Assembly (NCBI GenBank): GCA_903918755.1
Contig: CAIXFN010000030.1
Location: 62,001-126,000 of the forward strand
Reading direction: 5' to 3'
DNA from: an uncultured Pedosphaera sp.
GTDB lineage: Bacteria > Verrucomicrobiota > Verrucomicrobiia > Limisphaerales > Pedosphaeraceae
Length of the DNA: 64,000 nt
Made by a program: the position numbers and the translations under genes. The notes under the pieces were generated by a model. That model saw only the letters and a program-made list of their open reading frames with translations, made no database searches and was not told where the DNA came from. Every line of letters begins with the position of its first letter. Position 1 is the stretch's first letter. Below are positions 44,762 to 51,958 of the stretch, one piece after another.

Positions 44762-46012
44762 TCAGGCGTGGGCGACCGGTTCCGTGACCGGGGTTTTCTC
44801 CCGCTGCGTGCGAATCGCCAGCACGAGCCAGAAGCCCGCGGCCACCAGCAACGCAACCGGGAGTATCAGGACCGCTTTTTGCAGACTGTGCCAAAGATCC
44901 GAGAGGTGGCCGACAATTTCCGAGGACCAGAGATCTCCGAATAGGTGGATCATGAAAATCGAAACCGCCATGGCGCTGGCGTGGAGGTTGGCCGGGACCG
45001 CTTCCAAGGTGATGGTGTTGACCGGCCCCGTCGAAAACCAGAGGAAAAACATGGCCACGGCCATGCATGCCTGCGCAGCCAATTGATTGGGCAGGGTGAA
45101 ACTCAGGACCACCAAGGGCACTGAAATTAGAACCGAAAGGGCGATGGTCCAGGCGTATCCGGCCCGGTTGTATTTCTGCCAAACCCCGGCGAGGTAACCG
45201 CCGATGAAGGTGCCAAGGAGTCCGGTGATCACCGTCATGGTGCCGAAAAAAGTGGAAGCCGGTGTCAGGGCCATGCCATGCACCCGCACAAAAAAGGTGG
45301 GCCCCCAGGTGCCGAAAGCTCCCAGGGCAAAGGTGTAGGCCGTATAGCCCAGCACCACCAGCATGAACTTGGGCAGCCAGAAGAGTTTGACCACATCGGC
45401 GAGGGAGGGCTTGATCCGGTCCGCGGCGCGGGTGCCATCGGCCGCCCCGCGTTCGGTCTCTTTGAACGGTAACAGCACCAGGGCCAAAATCAGCCCGGGG
45501 GCGCCGGTCCAGATAAAGGCGTGGCGCCAGGAATAGTGTTCGGCGATCAGTCCGCCAAAAATATTTCCCAACGCGGCCCCCACAGGGATGGCGACATAGA
45601 AAACCGTCAGGGCGAAATTGCGTTTCGTAGCGGCGAAGTTATCCGAGATCAGGCTGGGACTGGTCGTGGCATAGCTGGCCTCACCCAGGCCGACCAGCGC
45701 GCGAAAGGCGAGCAGGATACCCAGGGTGGGGGCAAACCCGGTCAGGACGGTGCCCAGGCTCCAGACGAAAATGCCCACCGCGATCAACCATTTGCGAGGC
45801 ATGCGGTCTCCCAGATAACCAAAGATGGGCGAGGTGACGAAGTAGCCGATCATGAACGCCGTGGCGATCCGTCCCACCTGGCCGTCGCTGATCTTCAGTT
45901 CCTCCTTGAGCGGCGTCAGGACCGCGGAGAGGACAAAGCGGTCGATGTAGTTAAACAAGTTGAGGCCCGTCAGGATGGCCAGGGTCCAGGCGGGGCTTAG
46001 GCGGCGGTTCAT
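44762..46012 (-). CDS. MFS transporter, spinster-like family
   Basis: 416 residues with twelve predicted membrane helices. LNLFNYIDRFVLSAVLTPLKEEL at helix 1, GYLGDRMPRKW at loop 2-3 (MFS signature) and GLGEASYATTSPSLISD in helix 4 match the spinster-like group. Eukaryotic spinsters carry lysophospholipids or sphingosine phosphate; bacterial members are mostly uncharacterised. The start overlaps the stop of the Lgt-like gene by 4 nt, making it the last gene of the leftward 51-44.8 kb train. Confidence 0.88.
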   Translation of the reverse strand: MNRRLSPAWTLAILTGLNLFNYIDRFVLSAVLTPLKEELKISDGQVGRIATAFMIGYFVTSPIFGYLGDRMPRKWLIAVGIFVWSLGTVLTGFAPTLGILLAFRALVGLGEASYATTSPSLISDNFAATKRNFALTVFYVAIPVGAALGNIFGGLIAEHYSWRHAFIWTGAPGLILALVLLPFKETERGAADGTRAADRIKPSLADVVKLFWLPKFMLVVLGYTAYTFALGAFGTWGPTFFVRVHGMALTPASTFFGTMTVITGLLGTFIGGYLAGVWQKYNRAGYAWTIALSVLISVPLVVLSFTLPNQLAAQACMAVAMFFLWFSTGPVNTITLEAVPANLHASAMAVSIFMIHLFGDLWSSEIVGHLSDLWHSLQKAVLILPVALLVAAGFWLVLAIRTQREKTPVTEPVAHA

Positions 46013-46749
46013 GGGGTGGTGATTGGACGGCAGGGCGGTTGGTTCGTCAATGGCGGAATCGGGACGCGTTGGCGGTGCCGGAAGCCTCCGGCGCCCAGTG
46101 CGAATACGGCGAGGGCGGCCAATTGGTAGCCGCTGAAAGGACCGAGGATATGGGGTGTCTCGCGCACAAATTCATGGGCGAAACGAAAAACGCCATAGGC
46201 CATCAAGTAAAGGTGGAAATGCTGCCCGAGGAGGCTGTGACTTCGGCGGAGGACGAAGAAAACCAACAACGCGGTCCCATTGAACAGGATTTCAACCGGC
46301 ACGGCGGGCCAGCGCGTCACACCTTGGCCATCGGTGAGCGAGTACCAGGCCGGGGAGCAGGCCACGCCGAGGCAACAACCATGCAGCAGACAGCCAAAGC
46401 GGCCAATGATGATTCCCACCGGAGTGATGGCGGCGAACCAATCGCCGGTGACCCCGCGAAAGCCCACGGCGCGCTTGGCGATTTCCACTGCCAGGTAACC
46501 GCCGAGCAGGGCGCCCAGGATCGATTTGCCCGTGGCCCATTGTCGCCACATGTCCGGTGTCCCGAAGTGCCGCCAACCTTCGGCCGCCAGATAGACGATC
46601 TTGGCGCCCAGAAACGCCCCCAGCAGCGCGGCCACATACACGGTGAGCAGCCGATCATCCCGGCGGGCCAGGCGCGACCAAAGCCAGACGGTGACCAGGA
46701 TGCCGCCCAGCATCAGCCAACCATAGGGGGACTGGGTCGGTTGGGGCAT
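46009..46749 (-). CDS. Prolipoprotein diacylglyceryl transferase (Lgt) paralog
   Basis: 246 residues, about seven membrane segments. The Lgt signature is recognisable but altered: where Lgt has G-R-x-G-N-x-x-N-G-E, this protein has GRFGCLLHGCC. The C-terminal FRFAHEFVRETP matches the Lgt Arg-Glu region. True Lgt moves diacylglycerol from phosphatidylglycerol to lipoprotein cysteines; the changed site suggests another acceptor or role. Its ATG overlaps the stop of the radical SAM gene (TAATG), and its stop overlaps the MFS start, so all three are translated together. Confidence 0.78.
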   Translation of the reverse strand: MPQPTQSPYGWLMLGGILVTVWLWSRLARRDDRLLTVYVAALLGAFLGAKIVYLAAEGWRHFGTPDMWRQWATGKSILGALLGGYLAVEIAKRAVGFRGVTGDWFAAITPVGIIIGRFGCLLHGCCLGVACSPAWYSLTDGQGVTRWPAVPVEILFNGTALLVFFVLRRSHSLLGQHFHLYLMAYGVFRFAHEFVRETPHILGPFSGYQLAALAVFALGAGGFRHRQRVPIPPLTNQPPCRPITTP

Positions 46750-48200
46750 TATGGCGCGGGTTGAATGTCCGGGAAGCCGGAGTAGTACCGGCAGAAGGAA
46801 TCCAGTTTGCCGTCGGGCCGGATCACATGCGTGCAACAACGGTCCACGCGGTCCTCGTCCCAACTCCCGGCGTCCATGAAGGGTTTGATAAACAAGCGAA
46901 ACGTATTGGATTCATCCAATTCGAACTGCTTCAGCAGGTCGGCCAACGGTTCGGATTCGCAACCACATTTCATCAGGTCCTCGAGGCGGTAACGCACTTT
47001 GTCCTGCAGAAATCCCTGCACTGCCGTGAAGTCGATGAAGTCACTCACGGAGCGGGTGGTGCCGTTGATTTTCAGGAGATAACCGATCGTGGCGCAATTG
47101 GGATCACCACAGGGCAGGGGAGTAAAATCGTCGAACCGGAGCCGGCCGGCCGATTGGCCCACTGCGGCGAGAATGATGTCGGCGGTGTTCAGGCGGGCGG
47201 TCATTGTGCCGGAGGCGGATCCGGGTCGGCGCCCGCTGGCGAAAAAGGGTTGGAAAGCGATGCCACGAACCGATGGAAACCGCAGTCCAAACTCGATGGC
47301 CTCCCATAAATGCGGGAGATTGTCCGGAGTAACCGTCATCGCCAGGGTGACGGGCAGATTCATGGCGGTGCAACGCTCGAGGGCGCGTTCGCGGAGGGCC
47401 CGCAGATCCGCGCCGCGCAGGCTTTGCTGGCCGGCCAATTGCGGACCGTCAAATTGGAGATAGATTTGGAGGTGGCGCCGCCGGGCGGCGTCCGCCAGGC
47501 GGCCCGCGAATTCCTCGTCCTGGGCGATTCGAACCCCGTTGGTGTTGACCACCAGGTAATCGATGTTGGGATGGGCCTGGATCCATTCCACCAACGCGAA
47601 GAACTCCGGGTGCAGGGTGGGTTCGCCGCCGGAAAGCTGGAGGATTTCAATGCCGCCTTTGCGGTCGATGACGCCTTGAATCCGCTGCTGCAAATTCGCC
47701 AAGGGAACGGCGTCCACTTTGGCCCCCACCCCCACCGGGGAGTCCGCATAACAAGTGGGGCAGGCGAGATTGCAGGAATTGACGATTTCGATCAGCGCCA
47801 GGCAGGTGGAAAGTTTTTCAAACGGTCCGGTTCCCTTGCCGGCCGCATTGCGTCCCAGAGTGCCGGCAGGGGAGAAATTCGCCGCCGAAAGCGCCTGTCG
47901 TGAAGGCGGGGTGCCACTAGTGAAGGAAAGTGGAGTCGAGGGACGGCAACTTCCTTTGCCACCCGGGCAACAAGCGTTTTGGGGATCCCCCTGGGCCACC
48001 CAGTAAAAGCGGGCATCGGAGGCGATGCAGGCTTCCGCCGTTCCATGGATCGCGCAAGTACGCCGCAAGTTCACGCGGGCGGGCGTGCCGGGAATGCGCC
48101 AGACTTCGGCGGAGCAAGCGGTCAGGCACACCGGGCAACGACTGGTAGTGCGCTTGAGTAGTTCGGCGGCCGGAATTACCGGTGGAGAAAAGGAGTTCAT
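46749..48200 (-). CDS. Radical SAM protein resembling the MJ0619/tetraether lipid synthase (Tes) family
   Basis: 483 residues from ATG 48200. N-terminal rubredoxin-like metal site C22-x2-C25 and C49-x2-HG; radical SAM cluster C143-x3-C147-x2-C150; LSGGEPTLHP; LQFDGPQ; a later Cys pair PLPCGDPNCATIGYLL; and a closing CCTHVIRPDGKLDSFCRYY. This set of extra cysteine motifs is what I know from the MJ0619 group, which includes the archaeal enzyme that joins lipid tails into membrane-spanning tetraethers. Bacterial homologs are suspected in branched tetraether synthesis. Co-translated with an Lgt paralog. Family resemblance is from memory and not checked. Confidence 0.75.
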   Translation of the reverse strand: MNSFSPPVIPAAELLKRTTSRCPVCLTACSAEVWRIPGTPARVNLRRTCAIHGTAEACIASDARFYWVAQGDPQNACCPGGKGSCRPSTPLSFTSGTPPSRQALSAANFSPAGTLGRNAAGKGTGPFEKLSTCLALIEIVNSCNLACPTCYADSPVGVGAKVDAVPLANLQQRIQGVIDRKGGIEILQLSGGEPTLHPEFFALVEWIQAHPNIDYLVVNTNGVRIAQDEEFAGRLADAARRRHLQIYLQFDGPQLAGQQSLRGADLRALRERALERCTAMNLPVTLAMTVTPDNLPHLWEAIEFGLRFPSVRGIAFQPFFASGRRPGSASGTMTARLNTADIILAAVGQSAGRLRFDDFTPLPCGDPNCATIGYLLKINGTTRSVSDFIDFTAVQGFLQDKVRYRLEDLMKCGCESEPLADLLKQFELDESNTFRLFIKPFMDAGSWDEDRVDRCCTHVIRPDGKLDSFCRYYSGFPDIQPAP

Positions 48201-48211
48201 GTTGAGGTTAC

Positions 48212-48625
48212 CTACTGACTCAGGATGGTACAGCCGACCGCACCAATGGTAATGTTCAGGATGGCCAGGCCGATGGCCATGATCACTATAAATGCGATTC
48301 TGGCGGACAAGTCCATCACTTGGTGCTGGCTGAGCCGCCATGCGCAATAAATGCAGGAAAAAGGCAGGAGCACGCAGCCGACCATGTAAACCCCGGCACC
48401 ATAGTCCGGGTATACCATCCTGGCTAACGCAGCCCCAACCACCAACAGAAAGGCGGGCATGAGAAATCCAACCAGAAAAGAAAGGTTCCGCCCCCGACTG
48501 ACCCGCGGCGGTTGCGGTTCCGCCGACAGCGCCCGGCCGCAGTCCGGGCACGGCGCGCCCGGTCCTTCCGCGGGCGCAGCCGCTTGGCCGTGGCACCGTG
48601 GGCACAGGTTGGCTGGTTCACTCAT
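48212..48625 (-). CDS. Small zinc-ribbon membrane protein (array member a)
   Basis: 137 residues. N-terminal zinc ribbon (CPRC near residue 8, CPDC near 27), a short polar linker, then four hydrophobic helices. It is the last of five tandem small genes and lies 11 nt before the radical SAM gene. Its first residues (MSEPAN) match those of the gene at 49044 (MSEPTN), but the membrane part has diverged. The membrane part contains CIYCAWRL. Family unknown. Confidence 0.7.
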   Translation of the reverse strand: MSEPANLCPRCHGQAAAPAEGPGAPCPDCGRALSAEPQPPRVSRGRNLSFLVGFLMPAFLLVVGAALARMVYPDYGAGVYMVGCVLLPFSCIYCAWRLSQHQVMDLSARIAFIVIMAIGLAILNITIGAVGCTILSQ

Positions 48626-48629
48626 GGCT

Positions 48630-49037
48630 TCAATGAATCAGGCGGACGCAGCCCACCCAAACAAGCGAGATCTGAAAACCAGCAATCGGGATTGCCAGCA
48701 GGAGGGTGATGAGGACCCGGAGGAGGGGCCGGCGCGTCCCTAGGGAGGCCAAAAACCAGCCGCAAAAAAGCGCGCAAACCGGGATGGCAATCAGCGAACA
48801 AAACAGGGAAAGCATCGCGCCACTGCCATCCCCGTGAGATGGTTTCAAGCTGCCCAAGGCCCCGATCACGAAAATGAGTCCTGGCGGGGTCAGCATTAAA
48901 ATCAGGAAAATAATCCAAGCTTTCCAACTTGGCCGGATCGCAGGGGGACCACAGCGAGGGCAGTATTGCGACTCTCCGGCAATGGGATCTGGCAACCGGA
49001 AGCCACAGTGGGGGCACGAAGTGGGGAAGGTAGTCAT
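48630..49037 (-). CDS. Small zinc-ribbon membrane protein (array member b)
   Basis: 135 residues: zinc ribbon CPHC...CPRC, then KAWIIFLILMLTPPG and three more hydrophobic helices, with CGWFLASLGTRRPLLR between the third and fourth. It aligns without gaps to the gene at 49363 (78 of 135 residues the same by my count), so the two are recent duplicates. Spacing to neighbours is 4 and 6 nt. Function unknown. Confidence 0.72.
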   Translation of the reverse strand: MTTFPTSCPHCGFRLPDPIAGESQYCPRCGPPAIRPSWKAWIIFLILMLTPPGLIFVIGALGSLKPSHGDGSGAMLSLFCSLIAIPVCALFCGWFLASLGTRRPLLRVLITLLLAIPIAGFQISLVWVGCVRLIH

Positions 49038-49043
49038 CGCGGA

Positions 49044-49358
49044 TTATTGTATATGCGAGCCGAACAAGGCCCATACGACTATAAGGCCAAGATAGATCAC
49101 TGCGACACCGAGCCAGCAGGCGATGCCCAGGGAAAGCTGCTTGTTCGGATTTCGCGTAATCAATCCGGCGAGCAAGAAGCCGGCGGCGATACTACCCCAG
49201 CCGGCAAGGATCAACGTCAAGATCGGATGCAGGTATACCGCCCCGACCGCAAGGAATGGAGTCCCCAAAAATACCAACCAGAACTGCCACCATCGGCGGA
49301 TCCGCTTGGAGGAATTCGCCGTCGGACGTCTGGTAACGGTATTCGTTGGTTCACTCAT
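49044..49358 (-). CDS. Small membrane protein that has lost its zinc ribbon (array member c)
   Basis: 104 residues, the shortest of the array. It opens MSEPTNTVTRRPT, with no cysteines where the zinc ribbon should be, and continues with VFLGTPF and GFLLAGLITRN segments that align without gaps to the gene at 49777. It therefore looks like a duplicate whose metal site was lost. Four hydrophobic helices remain. Function unknown. Confidence 0.65.
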   Translation of the reverse strand: MSEPTNTVTRRPTANSSKRIRRWWQFWLVFLGTPFLAVGAVYLHPILTLILAGWGSIAAGFLLAGLITRNPNKQLSLGIACWLGVAVIYLGLIVVWALFGSHIQ

Positions 49359-49362
49359 GGCG

Positions 49363-49770
49363 TTAGCGCATCAGCAAGGCGCAGCCCGCCCAAACGAGCG
49401 AGAGTTGAAAACCGGCAATCACGAGCGCCAATCCGATAGCCATGAAGAAGCGGAGCAGGGGGCGTCGCGTGCCGATTACAGCCAAAAACCAGCCGCAATA
49501 AAGCGAACAAACCGGGATGGCGGCCAGAGAGAGGAATAGAAAAATCATGGAGCCAGTGCCATTCCCATATGGCGGATTCACTCTGGCGAAGCCGTCAGTC
49601 ACGAGACTGAGCCCGGGCGGGGTCAGCAGTAGCACGAGGAAAATGGTCCACGCTTTCCGCGAGGGCCCGATTTTGGCGGGGCCACAACGAGGGCAGATGA
49701 CAGACTCGTCTGTCCCAGGAGCCGGCAACTTGGAACCACAATGCGGGCAGGTGGTGGAAGAGATATTCAT
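49363..49770 (-). CDS. Small zinc-ribbon membrane protein (array member d)
   Basis: 135 residues, paralog of array member b: zinc ribbon CPHCGSKLP...CPRCG, KAWTIFLVLLLTPPG, CGWFLAVIGTRRPLLR and a last helix FQLSLVWAGC. Located 6 nt after member e and 4 nt before member c, the same spacings as around member b. Function unknown. Confidence 0.72.
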   Translation of the reverse strand: MNISSTTCPHCGSKLPAPGTDESVICPRCGPAKIGPSRKAWTIFLVLLLTPPGLSLVTDGFARVNPPYGNGTGSMIFLFLSLAAIPVCSLYCGWFLAVIGTRRPLLRFFMAIGLALVIAGFQLSLVWAGCALLMR

Positions 49771-49776
49771 GGCGGA

Positions 49777-50157
49777 TCAGTGCATGCCCGAGATGGCGAT
49801 CATGCACCCCACAAAACCAAGGCCCAGATAAACCACGGCGACGCCCAGCGAGCAGGCGATGCCAAGGGGAATTCGTTGGTTCAGGTTTTGCGTGATTGAC
49901 CCGGCCAGCAGGAAACCAGCGGAGAGGCTGCACAAGCCCGCGAGAACCAACATGAAGCCGTAATTGAGTTGGGCGGCGGCGAAAGCAATGAATGGCGTGC
50001 CGAGGAACACCCACCAGAACAGTCGTCGCTGGCGGTTTCGTCCGGCGGAATTAGTTTTTTGGAGGCTCGCGCAAGCCGGGCATACCGCGGCGCCTTCCGG
50101 TGGCGGTTCGGCCAACATGGCACCGCATCCCGCGCAGATGTTTGGTTCCCTTTCCAT
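49777..50157 (-). CDS. Small zinc-ribbon membrane protein (array member e)
   Basis: 126 residues, first gene of the array. Zinc ribbon CAGCGAML...CPAC, a basic linker, then VFLGTPFIAF and GFLLAGSITQN helices shared with member c. It follows the OlsB-like acyltransferase after 70 bp on the same strand, with no strong terminator between, so the acyltransferase may belong to the same transcript. Function unknown. Confidence 0.7.
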   Translation of the reverse strand: MEREPNICAGCGAMLAEPPPEGAAVCPACASLQKTNSAGRNRQRRLFWWVFLGTPFIAFAAAQLNYGFMLVLAGLCSLSAGFLLAGSITQNLNQRIPLGIACSLGVAVVYLGLGFVGCMIAISGMH

Positions 50158-50227
50158 GTTCAGGTCGCGGACTTGGGTTTTAGCTTAATCCGGCCAGCGG
50201 CTAATCGTAAACTCAATTCCGCCGTCC

Positions 50228-50992
50228 TCACGATACGCCCCAAAAATGTTCCACGGCGGCCGGCGGCAGCGCCTGGAAGTCCAGGAGAGTAAGGAAATCG
50301 ATCGACCCGAATTCCTGATCGAGGGCCGGGGGACCGCAAATCCGGGCGCCTAGTGAGAGGTAGGCGGCCAGCAGCCGGGGGACTTTGACCGGCGACTCCG
50401 CAAGTTTGTCCAAGGCGCAAGCGTAAGCAGGGTGGGGGCGGGTTTGCCAGGCGGGCGGTGCGAGGTACTGTTTTCGCAGTTCCTGAAAGGCGGTGGCGCC
50501 CACGGCCGGGTCGCGTGAAGTCAGGGAACTGCACCCGATCAGGTAGCGGGAGTTCTGGGCCCGCGCATACGCCGCAATGCCGCGCCAAAGCAGTCCCAGC
50601 ACCAGCCGATTGCGATGGTCACGATGGACGCAGGCACGGCCCAGTTCAATGATCTGGGAGCGGAGTGGGGCGAAGGGGGTGAAATCGAATTCTCGTTCGC
50701 TGTAGTAACCCCGGGTGGCTTGGGCGTTCTCCCCCGTTTGCAGGCGGTAAGCCCCCACGATCCGGCCGGTGGCGGTTTCCTCCACCACCAGGTGATCAAA
50801 CACCGTGTCGAATTCGTCGGCATCCAACCCCTGGTCGTAGGCGCTGGCCAGGCCTTCCCGCATTTCAAGGTTGAACACGGCAAACCGCAACGCCTGGGTG
50901 GCGCGGAGCGTGGCGGCGTCGGTCGCCAGGCGGGCCACGTAGGTGGCGGGCAAGGGCCGTTTGACGGGTGGCTCGGAAATCGCGGCATTCAT
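50228..50992 (-). CDS. OlsB-like N-acyltransferase (GNAT fold)
   Basis: 254 residues with the pattern of ornithine N-acyltransferases (OlsB, Acetyltransf_5): ALRFAVFNLEM, DEFDTVFDHLVV, GAYRLQTGE, IELGRACVHRDHRN, and a GCSSLTS block. OlsB joins a 3-hydroxyacyl chain to ornithine, the first step of phosphate-free ornithine lipids. Similar acyltransferases occur with exosortase systems. I chose ATG 50992; the ORF opens at 51055, which would leave only 12 bp to the divergent LysR gene. No olsA is adjacent. Confidence 0.8.
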   Translation of the reverse strand: MNAAISEPPVKRPLPATYVARLATDAATLRATQALRFAVFNLEMREGLASAYDQGLDADEFDTVFDHLVVEETATGRIVGAYRLQTGENAQATRGYYSEREFDFTPFAPLRSQIIELGRACVHRDHRNRLVLGLLWRGIAAYARAQNSRYLIGCSSLTSRDPAVGATAFQELRKQYLAPPAWQTRPHPAYACALDKLAESPVKVPRLLAAYLSLGARICGPPALDQEFGSIDFLTLLDFQALPPAAVEHFWGVS

Positions 50993-51067: not shown

Positions 51068-51958
51068 ATGAACATCCATCACCTGGAGCTTTTCTATTAT
51101 GTGGCCCGACACGGGGGGATTAGCGAGGCGGTGCGGAACATCCCGTATGGCATCCAGCAACCCGCGGTGAGTGGCCAAATCGGTCAATTGGAGGAATATC
51201 TCGGGACCACCTTGTTCCAACGGCGGCCCTTCTCCTTGACCCCGCCGGGGGAGAAATTGTACGCGCATATCCACCCGTTTTTTTCCAAACTCGACGCGGT
51301 GGCCGCGGAATTGCAAGGCGGCGTCACCCACCAGGTGCGCATCGGTTCCTCGGACATTGTGCTACGGGACCACCTGCCCGAATTGCTCCAGGCGGCGCGG
51401 AAGAAAGTCCCGGGCTTGAAGATCACCATGCGGGACGGTTACCAGCCCGACCTGGAAAATCTGCTGCTCCGCCAGGAAATTGATCTGGCGGTGACTTTGA
51501 TCGAGAAAAAATCCCCGCCCGGGATCCGTTCGATCCCCCTGCTTGAACTGCCCCTCGTGCTCCTCGTTCAGAAAGACAGTCCCGTATCCTGCGCCGAGGA
51601 ACTGTGGGCGCGGGACAAGATTGCCGACCCGCTGATCTGCCTCCCGGTGAGCGAAACTTTGTGCAAATACTTTCAGCAGGGCTTGCGCCGGCTGCGGGTG
51701 GATTGGTTTCCCGGCATCGAAGTGACCTCGCTGGAAGTCATTGATGCCTACGTGCGCAGCGGTTTTGGCATTGGTCTCACCGTGGCCATTCCGGGCACCA
51801 AACCGCCGGTCGGGCTGCGGGTATTGCCGCTGGCGGGGTTTGATCCGGTGGTGATGGGGGCCTTGTGGCGGGGCAAACCCGGTCCAGCGGTCCAAGTGCT
51901 GCTCACCGAAATGCAGGCCCGGGCGAAACGGTTCACCGCCGCGGGCGCCGGTGCTTGA
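51068..51958 (+). CDS. LysR-family transcriptional regulator
   Basis: 296 residues. N-terminal winged HTH ([19 protein letters not shown], then [16 protein letters not shown]), and a C-terminal effector-binding domain ([28 protein letters not shown]). It diverges from the OlsB-like gene by about 75 bp, the usual layout for a LysR regulator and its target, so it may control the 50992-44762 gene train. Effector unknown. The next gene, thiG, begins 52 bp downstream on the same strand. Confidence 0.88.

Follow-up and report, generated by a model that had tools for sequence, protein, structure and literature searches.

Bacterial lipidation of the Lgt type is known at an N-terminal cysteine. The archaeal radical S-adenosylmethionine (SAM) enzyme Tes (GDGT-MAS, MJ0619) has free lipids as its substrate and is reported to couple the ends of lipid chains via a carbon bound to a cluster sulphur (PMC9433317). 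In bacteria, Mss/Ger and homologues of Tes, radical or reductive enzymes for membrane-spanning lipids, have been proposed for the branched glycerol dialkyl glycerol tetraethers (brGDGTs), with the Tes homologues reported but not tested; the available sections of these accounts mention neither an Lgt partner nor small proteins (PMC8941075, PMC11868695). A C-terminal signature with an invariant cysteine is described for the MYXO-CTERM/myxosortase system (PMC11980579). Here we analyse a stretch of 64,000 nucleotides from an uncultured Pedosphaera sp. of the Verrucomicrobiota (assembly GCA_903918755.1, 7.19 Mb; contig CAIXFN010000030.1, positions 62,001 to 126,000), hereafter the window, in which genes for small membrane proteins, a Tes-like radical SAM enzyme and a paralogue of Lgt lie together. 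It is near certain that these three parts form a core module, and the module suggests a previously undescribed attachment of unusual lipids to membrane proteins. To our knowledge no known system combines the three: both enzymes are members of known superfamilies but fall below the cut-offs of the nearest curated families, and the small proteins match no curated family. No Lgt/radical SAM pair is named in the titles and abstract openings listed by searches of open-licence papers, and a partial earlier description is possible.

The core is conserved well beyond the window genome. In a scan of genome contigs the radical SAM protein had 186 relatives, and the best 80 loci were kept; several of the 80 lie on the same contigs as other sampled loci, and related species are not independent of one another. 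Of the 76 loci with room for one, 66 have a co-directional Lgt-like gene no more than 1.5 kb downstream, and 71 have one within 5 kb (the count includes L060, where the Lgt-like gene is cut at the contig end). The recurrence of the gene order elsewhere in Verrucomicrobiota, which the original prediction had put forward as a check, is borne out for the core. The small genes either immediately precede the radical SAM gene or lie in the interval that separates it from the Lgt-like gene. Among 58 genomes of the order, the host's own included, a strong Lgt-like paralogue was found in 16 and a radical SAM orthologue in 15, with 15 common to both; the exceptions are an Lgt-like gene alone in one genome that is 57% complete and a radical SAM fragment alone at one contig end. 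In a draw of 387 genomes from the phylum, 13 had a strong, long radical SAM match, and 12 of these 13 were also matched by A3, the profile of our Lgt-like alignment. This profile matches 54 of the 387 genomes, and all seven matches of at least 288 bits fall in genomes with the radical SAM gene. Its matches at 75–134 bits include other Lgts, and because this weak range takes them in, G107, G148, G216, G365 and G412 were judged by the place of the gene beside the radical SAM gene.

Titled relatives of the window radical SAM gene come nearly all from Verrucomicrobiota, and the module is also present at the distant Verrucomicrobiota loci L131, L132 and L158. Chthoniobacter flavus, Luteolibacter marinus, Roseibacillus and Verrucomicrobium are named strains with the radical SAM gene and a nearby Lgt-like gene, so that the system is directly testable. 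Three records of a plasmid collection extend the distribution to other phyla. Persicobacter psychrovividus (Bacteroidota) encodes the Lgt-like protein, the radical SAM enzyme and a 59-aa protein ending in GTGICGSLLS; Nonomuraea gerenzanensis (Actinomycetota) has a 368-aa protein with the end SAGICTGINPSLYG together with the Lgt-like and radical SAM proteins; and Mycobacterium branderi (Actinomycetota) carries a member of the Lgt family, two proline-rich proteins with the ends SGGLCTGLNPADYAG and TVGVCTGLNPAMYTGA, and the radical SAM protein.

A tree of 29 radical SAM rows places the 21 Lgt-linked rows in one group (support 86/82), with a single change in 87% of bootstrap trees; the support is moderate, and the long branches of L039 and L161 make the details unsure. 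Relatives linked to a methyltransferase, or to short-chain dehydrogenase/reductase (SDR) and acyl carrier protein (ACP) genes, branch outside this group. The TrsS-type relatives L153, L154 and L156, from Mycolicibacterium and two haloarchaeal records, lie on a separate branch, are followed by a methyltransferase and have no Lgt match; in two of the three the methyltransferase matches the DVU_1556 model with a score slightly under the cut-off. Theirs is a different pairing, and some of the three also have thiol-redox genes nearby. Another methyltransferase, in L132, matches ICMT/PEMT models and has homologues with the pair in L158 and L159 (on one branch, 3 of 3) and in L161, and in one of the 80 loci (L058). 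The methyltransferase of L132, L158, L159 and L161 is reminiscent of CaaX processing.

The most telling feature of the module lies in the small proteins. The candidates numbered 127, the window's five and 122 others selected on helices and length alone, so that helix number and length were fixed by the filters before cysteines were counted. A cysteine lies 2–18 residues from the end in 108 of the 127, preceded in 94 of these by G, A, S or T (where a protein has several tail cysteines, one after such a residue was preferred in this count). Around it, F stands at –3 in 52/108 and G at –1 in 74/108, giving a typical F-x-G-C past the last helix, and 5–12 residues follow the cysteine in most candidates. 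One to three tail-cysteine proteins are encoded at each of 69 of the 80 loci, and in the window four of the five small proteins have the feature. When the small protein nearest upstream of the enzymes is taken from each locus, 62/63 have a tail cysteine and 59/63 have it after G, A, S or T (57/58 and 54/58 in a non-redundant set), and the next most conserved columns are a proline (56/63), a glycine (50/63) and a tryptophan (43/63). The mean pairwise identity of these proteins is 19%, against 63% for the radical SAM and 50% for the Lgt-like proteins. In two sets of controls from outside the module, a tail cysteine after one of the four small residues was seen in 1/25 and 0/47. The positive-inside rule, applied to the three-helix proteins, places the cysteine outside in 75 of 77, inside in one and undecided in one. 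A near-invariant cysteine in an otherwise drifting protein, beside two enzymes and on the predicted side of Lgt, has the look of a modification site, and from these sequences it is likely to be one. The original prediction had taken the window's five small proteins for helpers of no known family: none matches a curated family above its cut-off, and a tail cysteine that is near-invariant while the proteins diverge points to substrates instead. As for the zinc-ribbon array of the same prediction, four of the five have a zinc-ribbon-like pair of CxxC motifs (the protein at 49044–49358 lacks it), and none reaches a curated zinc-ribbon cut-off in Pfam; across loci, a zinc-ribbon-like N-terminus motif is present in 16 of 104 tail-cysteine proteins. 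The order of a lipobox, a basic region and a hydrophobic helix followed by a small residue and cysteine, is seen in four of the five window proteins, with the cysteine near the C-terminus and not at the end of an N-terminal signal peptide. In MYXO-CTERM proteins the cysteine precedes the helix, whereas here it follows the last helix; no sorting protease was noticed beside the module, where none was searched for.

The Lgt-like protein of the module belongs to PF01790 (90.6 bits against a gathering threshold of 24.9) and stays below the cut-off of TIGR00544 (48.8 against 118.9 bits). As the window genome has a separate Lgt (228 bits), the gene encodes a paralogue. It resembles Lgt in its fold, its GRxG signature, its presumed cysteine acceptor and six phospholipid-binding residues: R143, E202, Y235, R239, E243 and R246 of the E. 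coli enzyme, which hold the phosphoglycerol part of the phospholipid, correspond to R117, E153, Y185, R189, E193 and R196 and are kept in 60 of 60 rows. A periplasm-facing site is assumed by kinship. The differences lie in the score, in the absence of His103, in a presumed acceptor at the C-terminal end of a helix, in the usual radical SAM partner, and in the motif [KR][ST]xxG[AG], which takes the place of GGxxF[HY]GG. The window paralogue reads GKS-I-L-GA in place of GG-x-x-F-[HY]-GG; [KR][ST]xxG[AG] is present in 60/60 rows of A3 and, by eye, in L131 (where the Lgt-like protein is a 519-aa frame with GKT), L155, L157 and L170. Three Lgts that do not belong to the module have GGxxF[HY]GG: that of the window genome itself and those of two genomes with no radical SAM match. 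These three group together in the Lgt tree (100/99, the L131 row and the rooting being disregarded). Two lysines, K75 and K50, are invariant in the 60 rows. The predicted structure (pLDDT 93) has E. coli Lgt as its sole significant Foldseek match (E 4.8e-8) and aligns to 5azb with Z 13.4 and 4.6 Å over 220 residues; the lower rows of this VIA-align structural alignment, with Z of 6 or less, were taken as chance. A search of PDB sequences with the single protein gave no match at E 1, and the Lgt-like profile found 5azb. The sites of Asn146 and Glu151 are both Cys in the paralogue; they are Cys in the genome's other Lgt too and hence not diagnostic, and GRxGCxxxGCC was dropped as a sign of new chemistry because that Lgt has the same motif.

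The radical SAM protein matches PF04055 and the HMPTM zinc-ribbon model in Pfam. Among curated profiles TrsS, a radical SAM (seleno)protein family, is the best (NF045646, 202.5 bits), followed by Tes (NF045702, 136.1 bits); the cut-offs are 490 and 450 bits, and that of TrsS was reached in none of the 387 genomes of the phylum. The predicted model (mean pLDDT 83, weak at 77–99 and 413–418) is nearest to the Tes structures 7tol and 7tom (7tol: Foldseek E 1.1e-28, TM 0.70), the outcome that the original prediction had expected of a comparison with archaeal Tes. Beyond the fold, the enzyme shares with Tes a rubredoxin-type site, whose C22, C25, C49 and H52 align to C9, C12, C33 and H36 of MjTes, the CxxxCxxC motif (C143, C147, C150) and a C-terminal RCCTH...FC that aligns with an MjTes segment (RCCxH..FC); both the rubredoxin-type and the radical SAM residues are invariant in 61 rows. 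It differs in its score, in the missing N-terminal auxiliary cluster motif of its clade and in the Lgt-like gene and small proteins that usually adjoin it. The combination that the original prediction had named as telling against it, a peptide or heme family for the enzyme together with no co-occurrence of the genes, is not what was found.

We favour, with somewhat less than even confidence, a chain of events in which the tail cysteine receives a lipid from the Lgt paralogue and this lipid is tailored by the radical SAM enzyme. The small proteins would be the substrates, with their helices, a basic loop and a last helix ending outside in F-x-G-C and a short tail, so that their C-terminus would form a lipobox-like site in place of the usual N-terminal one. 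The paralogue, periplasm-facing by kinship, would transfer a diacylglyceryl group derived from phospholipid to the tail cysteine, and an invariant lysine may replace the missing His103. The Tes-like enzyme would modify the lipid chains before or after the transfer, for example by a carbon–carbon coupling that gives a macrocyclic or membrane-spanning anchor. Residues, topology and motif point to the lipidation half of this chain, and kinship with Tes suggests the lipid-reshaping half. Rather doubtful is the most specific form, in which the paralogue loads the tail cysteine, the Tes-like enzyme couples lipids into macrocyclic or membrane-spanning protein-bound anchors, and in one branch an ICMT-type methyltransferase takes part, as a convergent analogue of C-terminal CaaX processing in eukaryotes. 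If true, lipidation by this module would define a second site for such a modification, at the outer end of a C-terminal helix, served by a dedicated Lgt paralogue and linked to a radical enzyme from the tetraether family; it would give the conserved paralogue a role and a Tes-like bacterial enzyme a concrete protein target, and at least three phyla would have a membrane anchor of a new kind.

Several observations weigh against lipidation of the tail cysteine. The residue that usually stands at –3 in a lipobox is unlike the Phe that dominates the tails of the small proteins. A tail cysteine of any kind is found in 9/25 and 9/47 of the controls outside the module. Under the helix and length filters 17 of the 80 loci have no upstream candidate, and a longer or cut tail-cysteine protein was found at L049, L058, L060 and L066 (four of the 11 loci otherwise without one), leaving seven of 80 without a clear tail-cysteine protein in the relaxed search; the window protein at 49044–49358, L082_u1 and the small neighbours in G412 (L161) likewise lack the cysteine. 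The linkage has its exceptions: no Lgt-like gene lies downstream of the radical SAM gene in five of the 76 loci (L101, L102, L114, L120 and L121), with 4.8–8 kb of downstream room in L101, L114 and L120; G400, in the draw of 387 genomes, has two radical SAM matches and no Lgt-like match; and in G334 and G375 the pair is unlinked, with no small protein seen next to either gene. The N-terminal auxiliary cluster of Tes (C73, C77, C80 and a histidine) has no counterpart in the 14 rows of alignment A1, where CxxxCxxCxxH is absent, although by eye the motif is present in the relatives L131, L132 and L155. By family, the radical SAM enzyme belongs in the cytosol, whereas the tail cysteine is predicted to lie outside. 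At the site of His103 the paralogue has L, T, M, V or I in 60/60 rows, and the genome's other Lgt has Tyr. Mutants of His103 in E. coli Lgt are reported to be inactive (PMC4728403), and as the paralogue has replaced this essential residue, diacylglyceryl transfer may have been lost.

The main rival to protein lipidation, in our judgement rather unlikely, is that the pair makes an unusual free lipid, the view of the original prediction, such as a coupled or macrocyclic phospholipid, with the small proteins anchoring or chaperoning the radical SAM enzyme at the membrane and the tail cysteine serving as a ligand for a metal or in redox chemistry. Free lipids are the substrate of Tes, the enzyme with the nearest fold (PMC9433317), the zinc-ribbon-like N-termini of some small proteins could bind the radical SAM enzyme, and a diverged second copy of the pair, at L039, lies near a ferritin-like protein and an OlsE-like hydroxylase. 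Helpers, however, would be expected to be conserved over their full length, and the small proteins have drifted to 19% identity beside enzymes at 50–63%; moreover, a single outward cysteine without a conserved partner ligand makes a poor metal site.

The occurrence of hypervariable small genes beside a radical SAM gene, with one to three tail-cysteine proteins at most loci, also recalls ribosomally synthesised and post-translationally modified peptides (RiPPs). The small proteins would then be precursors whose tail is modified by the radical SAM enzyme and whose cysteine is lipidated by the Lgt paralogue, and a signal peptidase II would free a short lipopeptide from the C-terminus as a signal or toxin. 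The lipobox-like order of basic loop, helix and GC and the shortness of the tails fit this scheme, but we regard it as distinctly unlikely: the tails vary widely among Verrucomicrobiota loci, the best RiPP maturase for the model, SkfB (Foldseek E 4.3e-10), is far behind Tes, a cytosolic enzyme would need to act ahead of membrane insertion, and Pfam finds no signal peptidase among the nine genes of the window train, the neighbours in other loci not having been searched for one. Still less probable is that nothing is modified, the tail cysteine serving the packing or sorting of a family of small membrane regulators and the paralogue being a remnant that binds lipid. The loss of His103, the cysteine-less copy in the window, and the unlinked genes of G334 and G375 without small neighbours would all be in keeping with this explanation, against which stand the co-occurrence of the paralogue with the radical SAM gene, the invariance of the lipid-binding residues and the recurrence of this tail cysteine across three phyla. 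It is very improbable that the nine genes form an operon of the ornithine-lipid kind, in which the acyltransferase would make an acyl-amino-acid lipid for decoration by the radical SAM and Lgt-like enzymes and for transport by the spinster-like carrier, since the gene order and overlaps, the OlsB matches (147 and 134 bits) and the spinster proteins as nearest solved carriers are offset by OlsB scores far under the cut-offs (350 and 320), by an acyltransferase without a match in the searched loci and by a carrier orthologue in four of 80.

The train itself consists of nine minus-strand open reading frames, from 50992 to 44762 (Table 1). Reading frames were called with a home-made codon score or as open frames, without a gene finder. 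From the acyltransferase to the radical SAM gene the intergenic gaps are 70, 6, 4, 6, 4 and 11 nt; the Lgt-like gene shares 1 nt with the radical SAM gene and 4 nt with the major facilitator superfamily (MFS) gene. The coordinates thus confirm the original prediction of nine leftward genes with gaps of at most 70 nt and overlaps among the last three, and its four family guesses (OlsB-like, Tes-like, Lgt-like and spinster-like) hold at the level of the superfamily. Its view of the nine as one conserved unit did not survive: the acyltransferase was in no searched locus and the MFS and LysR orthologues were in four of 80 each, and the lack of conservation of the acyltransferase next to the core led us to drop the nine-gene operon as the unit. 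The proposed link to lipids is partly supported, by the Tes-like fold, the kept phospholipid-binding residues and the co-occurrence of the pair, but not for the nine genes as a whole.

The genes at the edges are less closely tied to the core. The acyltransferase reaches 147.4 and 134.3 bits with the OlsB models NF052554 and NF052555, has no match at E 1e-5 in the 80 genome-contig, 20 order-level and 25 further loci, and no solved relative at E 10. The MFS carrier is spinster-like by sequence kinship, its best solved match being SPNS1 (9boi, E 2.9e-49), and with orthologues defined at above 50% identity it is an occasional accessory of the module. The divergent LysR gene is a possible switch of the module. 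Rfam and tRNA scans of the window gave no match.

Table 1. Genes and tail-cysteine codons of the train and the divergent regulator (positions in the window)
Feature	Coordinates	Strand	Basis
LysR regulator, divergent from train	51068..51958	+	profile
OlsB-like GNAT acyltransferase, 254 aa	50228..50992	-	ATG at 50992; profile; 70 nt upstream of small genes
Small membrane protein, 126 aa, zinc-ribbon-like N-terminus, tail FVGCMIAISGMH	49777..50157	-	ORF translation
Tail-cysteine codon of the 126-aa protein	49804..49806	-	read from sequence
Small membrane protein, 135 aa, zinc-ribbon-like N-terminus, tail WAGCALLMR	49363..49770	-	ORF translation
Tail-cysteine codon of the 49363-49770 protein	49381..49383	-	read from sequence
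Small membrane protein, 104 aa, without zinc ribbon, tail LFGSHIQ without cysteine	49044..49358	-	ORF translation
Small membrane protein, 135 aa, zinc-ribbon-like N-terminus, tail WVGCVRLIH	48630..49037	-	ORF translation
Tail-cysteine codon of the 48630-49037 protein	48648..48650	-	read from sequence
Small membrane protein, 137 aa, zinc-ribbon-like N-terminus, tail AVGCTILSQ	48212..48625	-	ORF translation
Tail-cysteine codon of the 137-aa protein	48230..48232	-	read from sequence
Tes/TrsS-like radical SAM enzyme, 483 aa; rubredoxin-type CxxC..CxxH, CxxxCxxC, C-terminal RCCTH..FC	46749..48200	-	profile, alignment, fold
Lgt-like paralogue (PF01790), 246 aa	46009..46749	-	profile, residues, fold
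Spinster-like MFS carrier	44762..46012	-	sequence match to solved carriers

Some relatives of the pair lie in other surroundings. The second copy at L039 (G002:C5, 5096–9943) is diverged (radical SAM 30%, Lgt-like 41% identical) and adjoins an OlsE-like hydroxylase, which at 93 bits falls short of its cut-off, and a protein recognised by eye as ferritin-like and di-iron; it may represent a version of the module linked to the hydroxylation of lipids. For G334 a selenoprotein reading was considered; the reported TGA may be the terminal stop. At L040 and L042, Tes/TrsS-like radical SAM genes of the same order lie near SDR and acyl-carrier-like genes (by eye), and at L040 and L041 a further radical SAM protein is encoded near the Tes/TrsS-like gene; the enzymes of L040–L042, which branch outside the Lgt-linked group, have fatty acids as possible substrates. 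The radical SAM relative that ranks next in the window genome, at L043 (G000:C43, 784–10851), clusters with polyprenyl synthase and cyclase-like genes (by eye), a cluster that probably belongs to hopanoid or terpenoid metabolism. Finally, L025, L028 and L036 share a gene pair that by eye resembles a TRAP-type transporter, a membrane protein of about 626 aa and a binding protein, which adjoins the module in L028 and L036 and lies 4–7 kb upstream of the radical SAM gene in L025.

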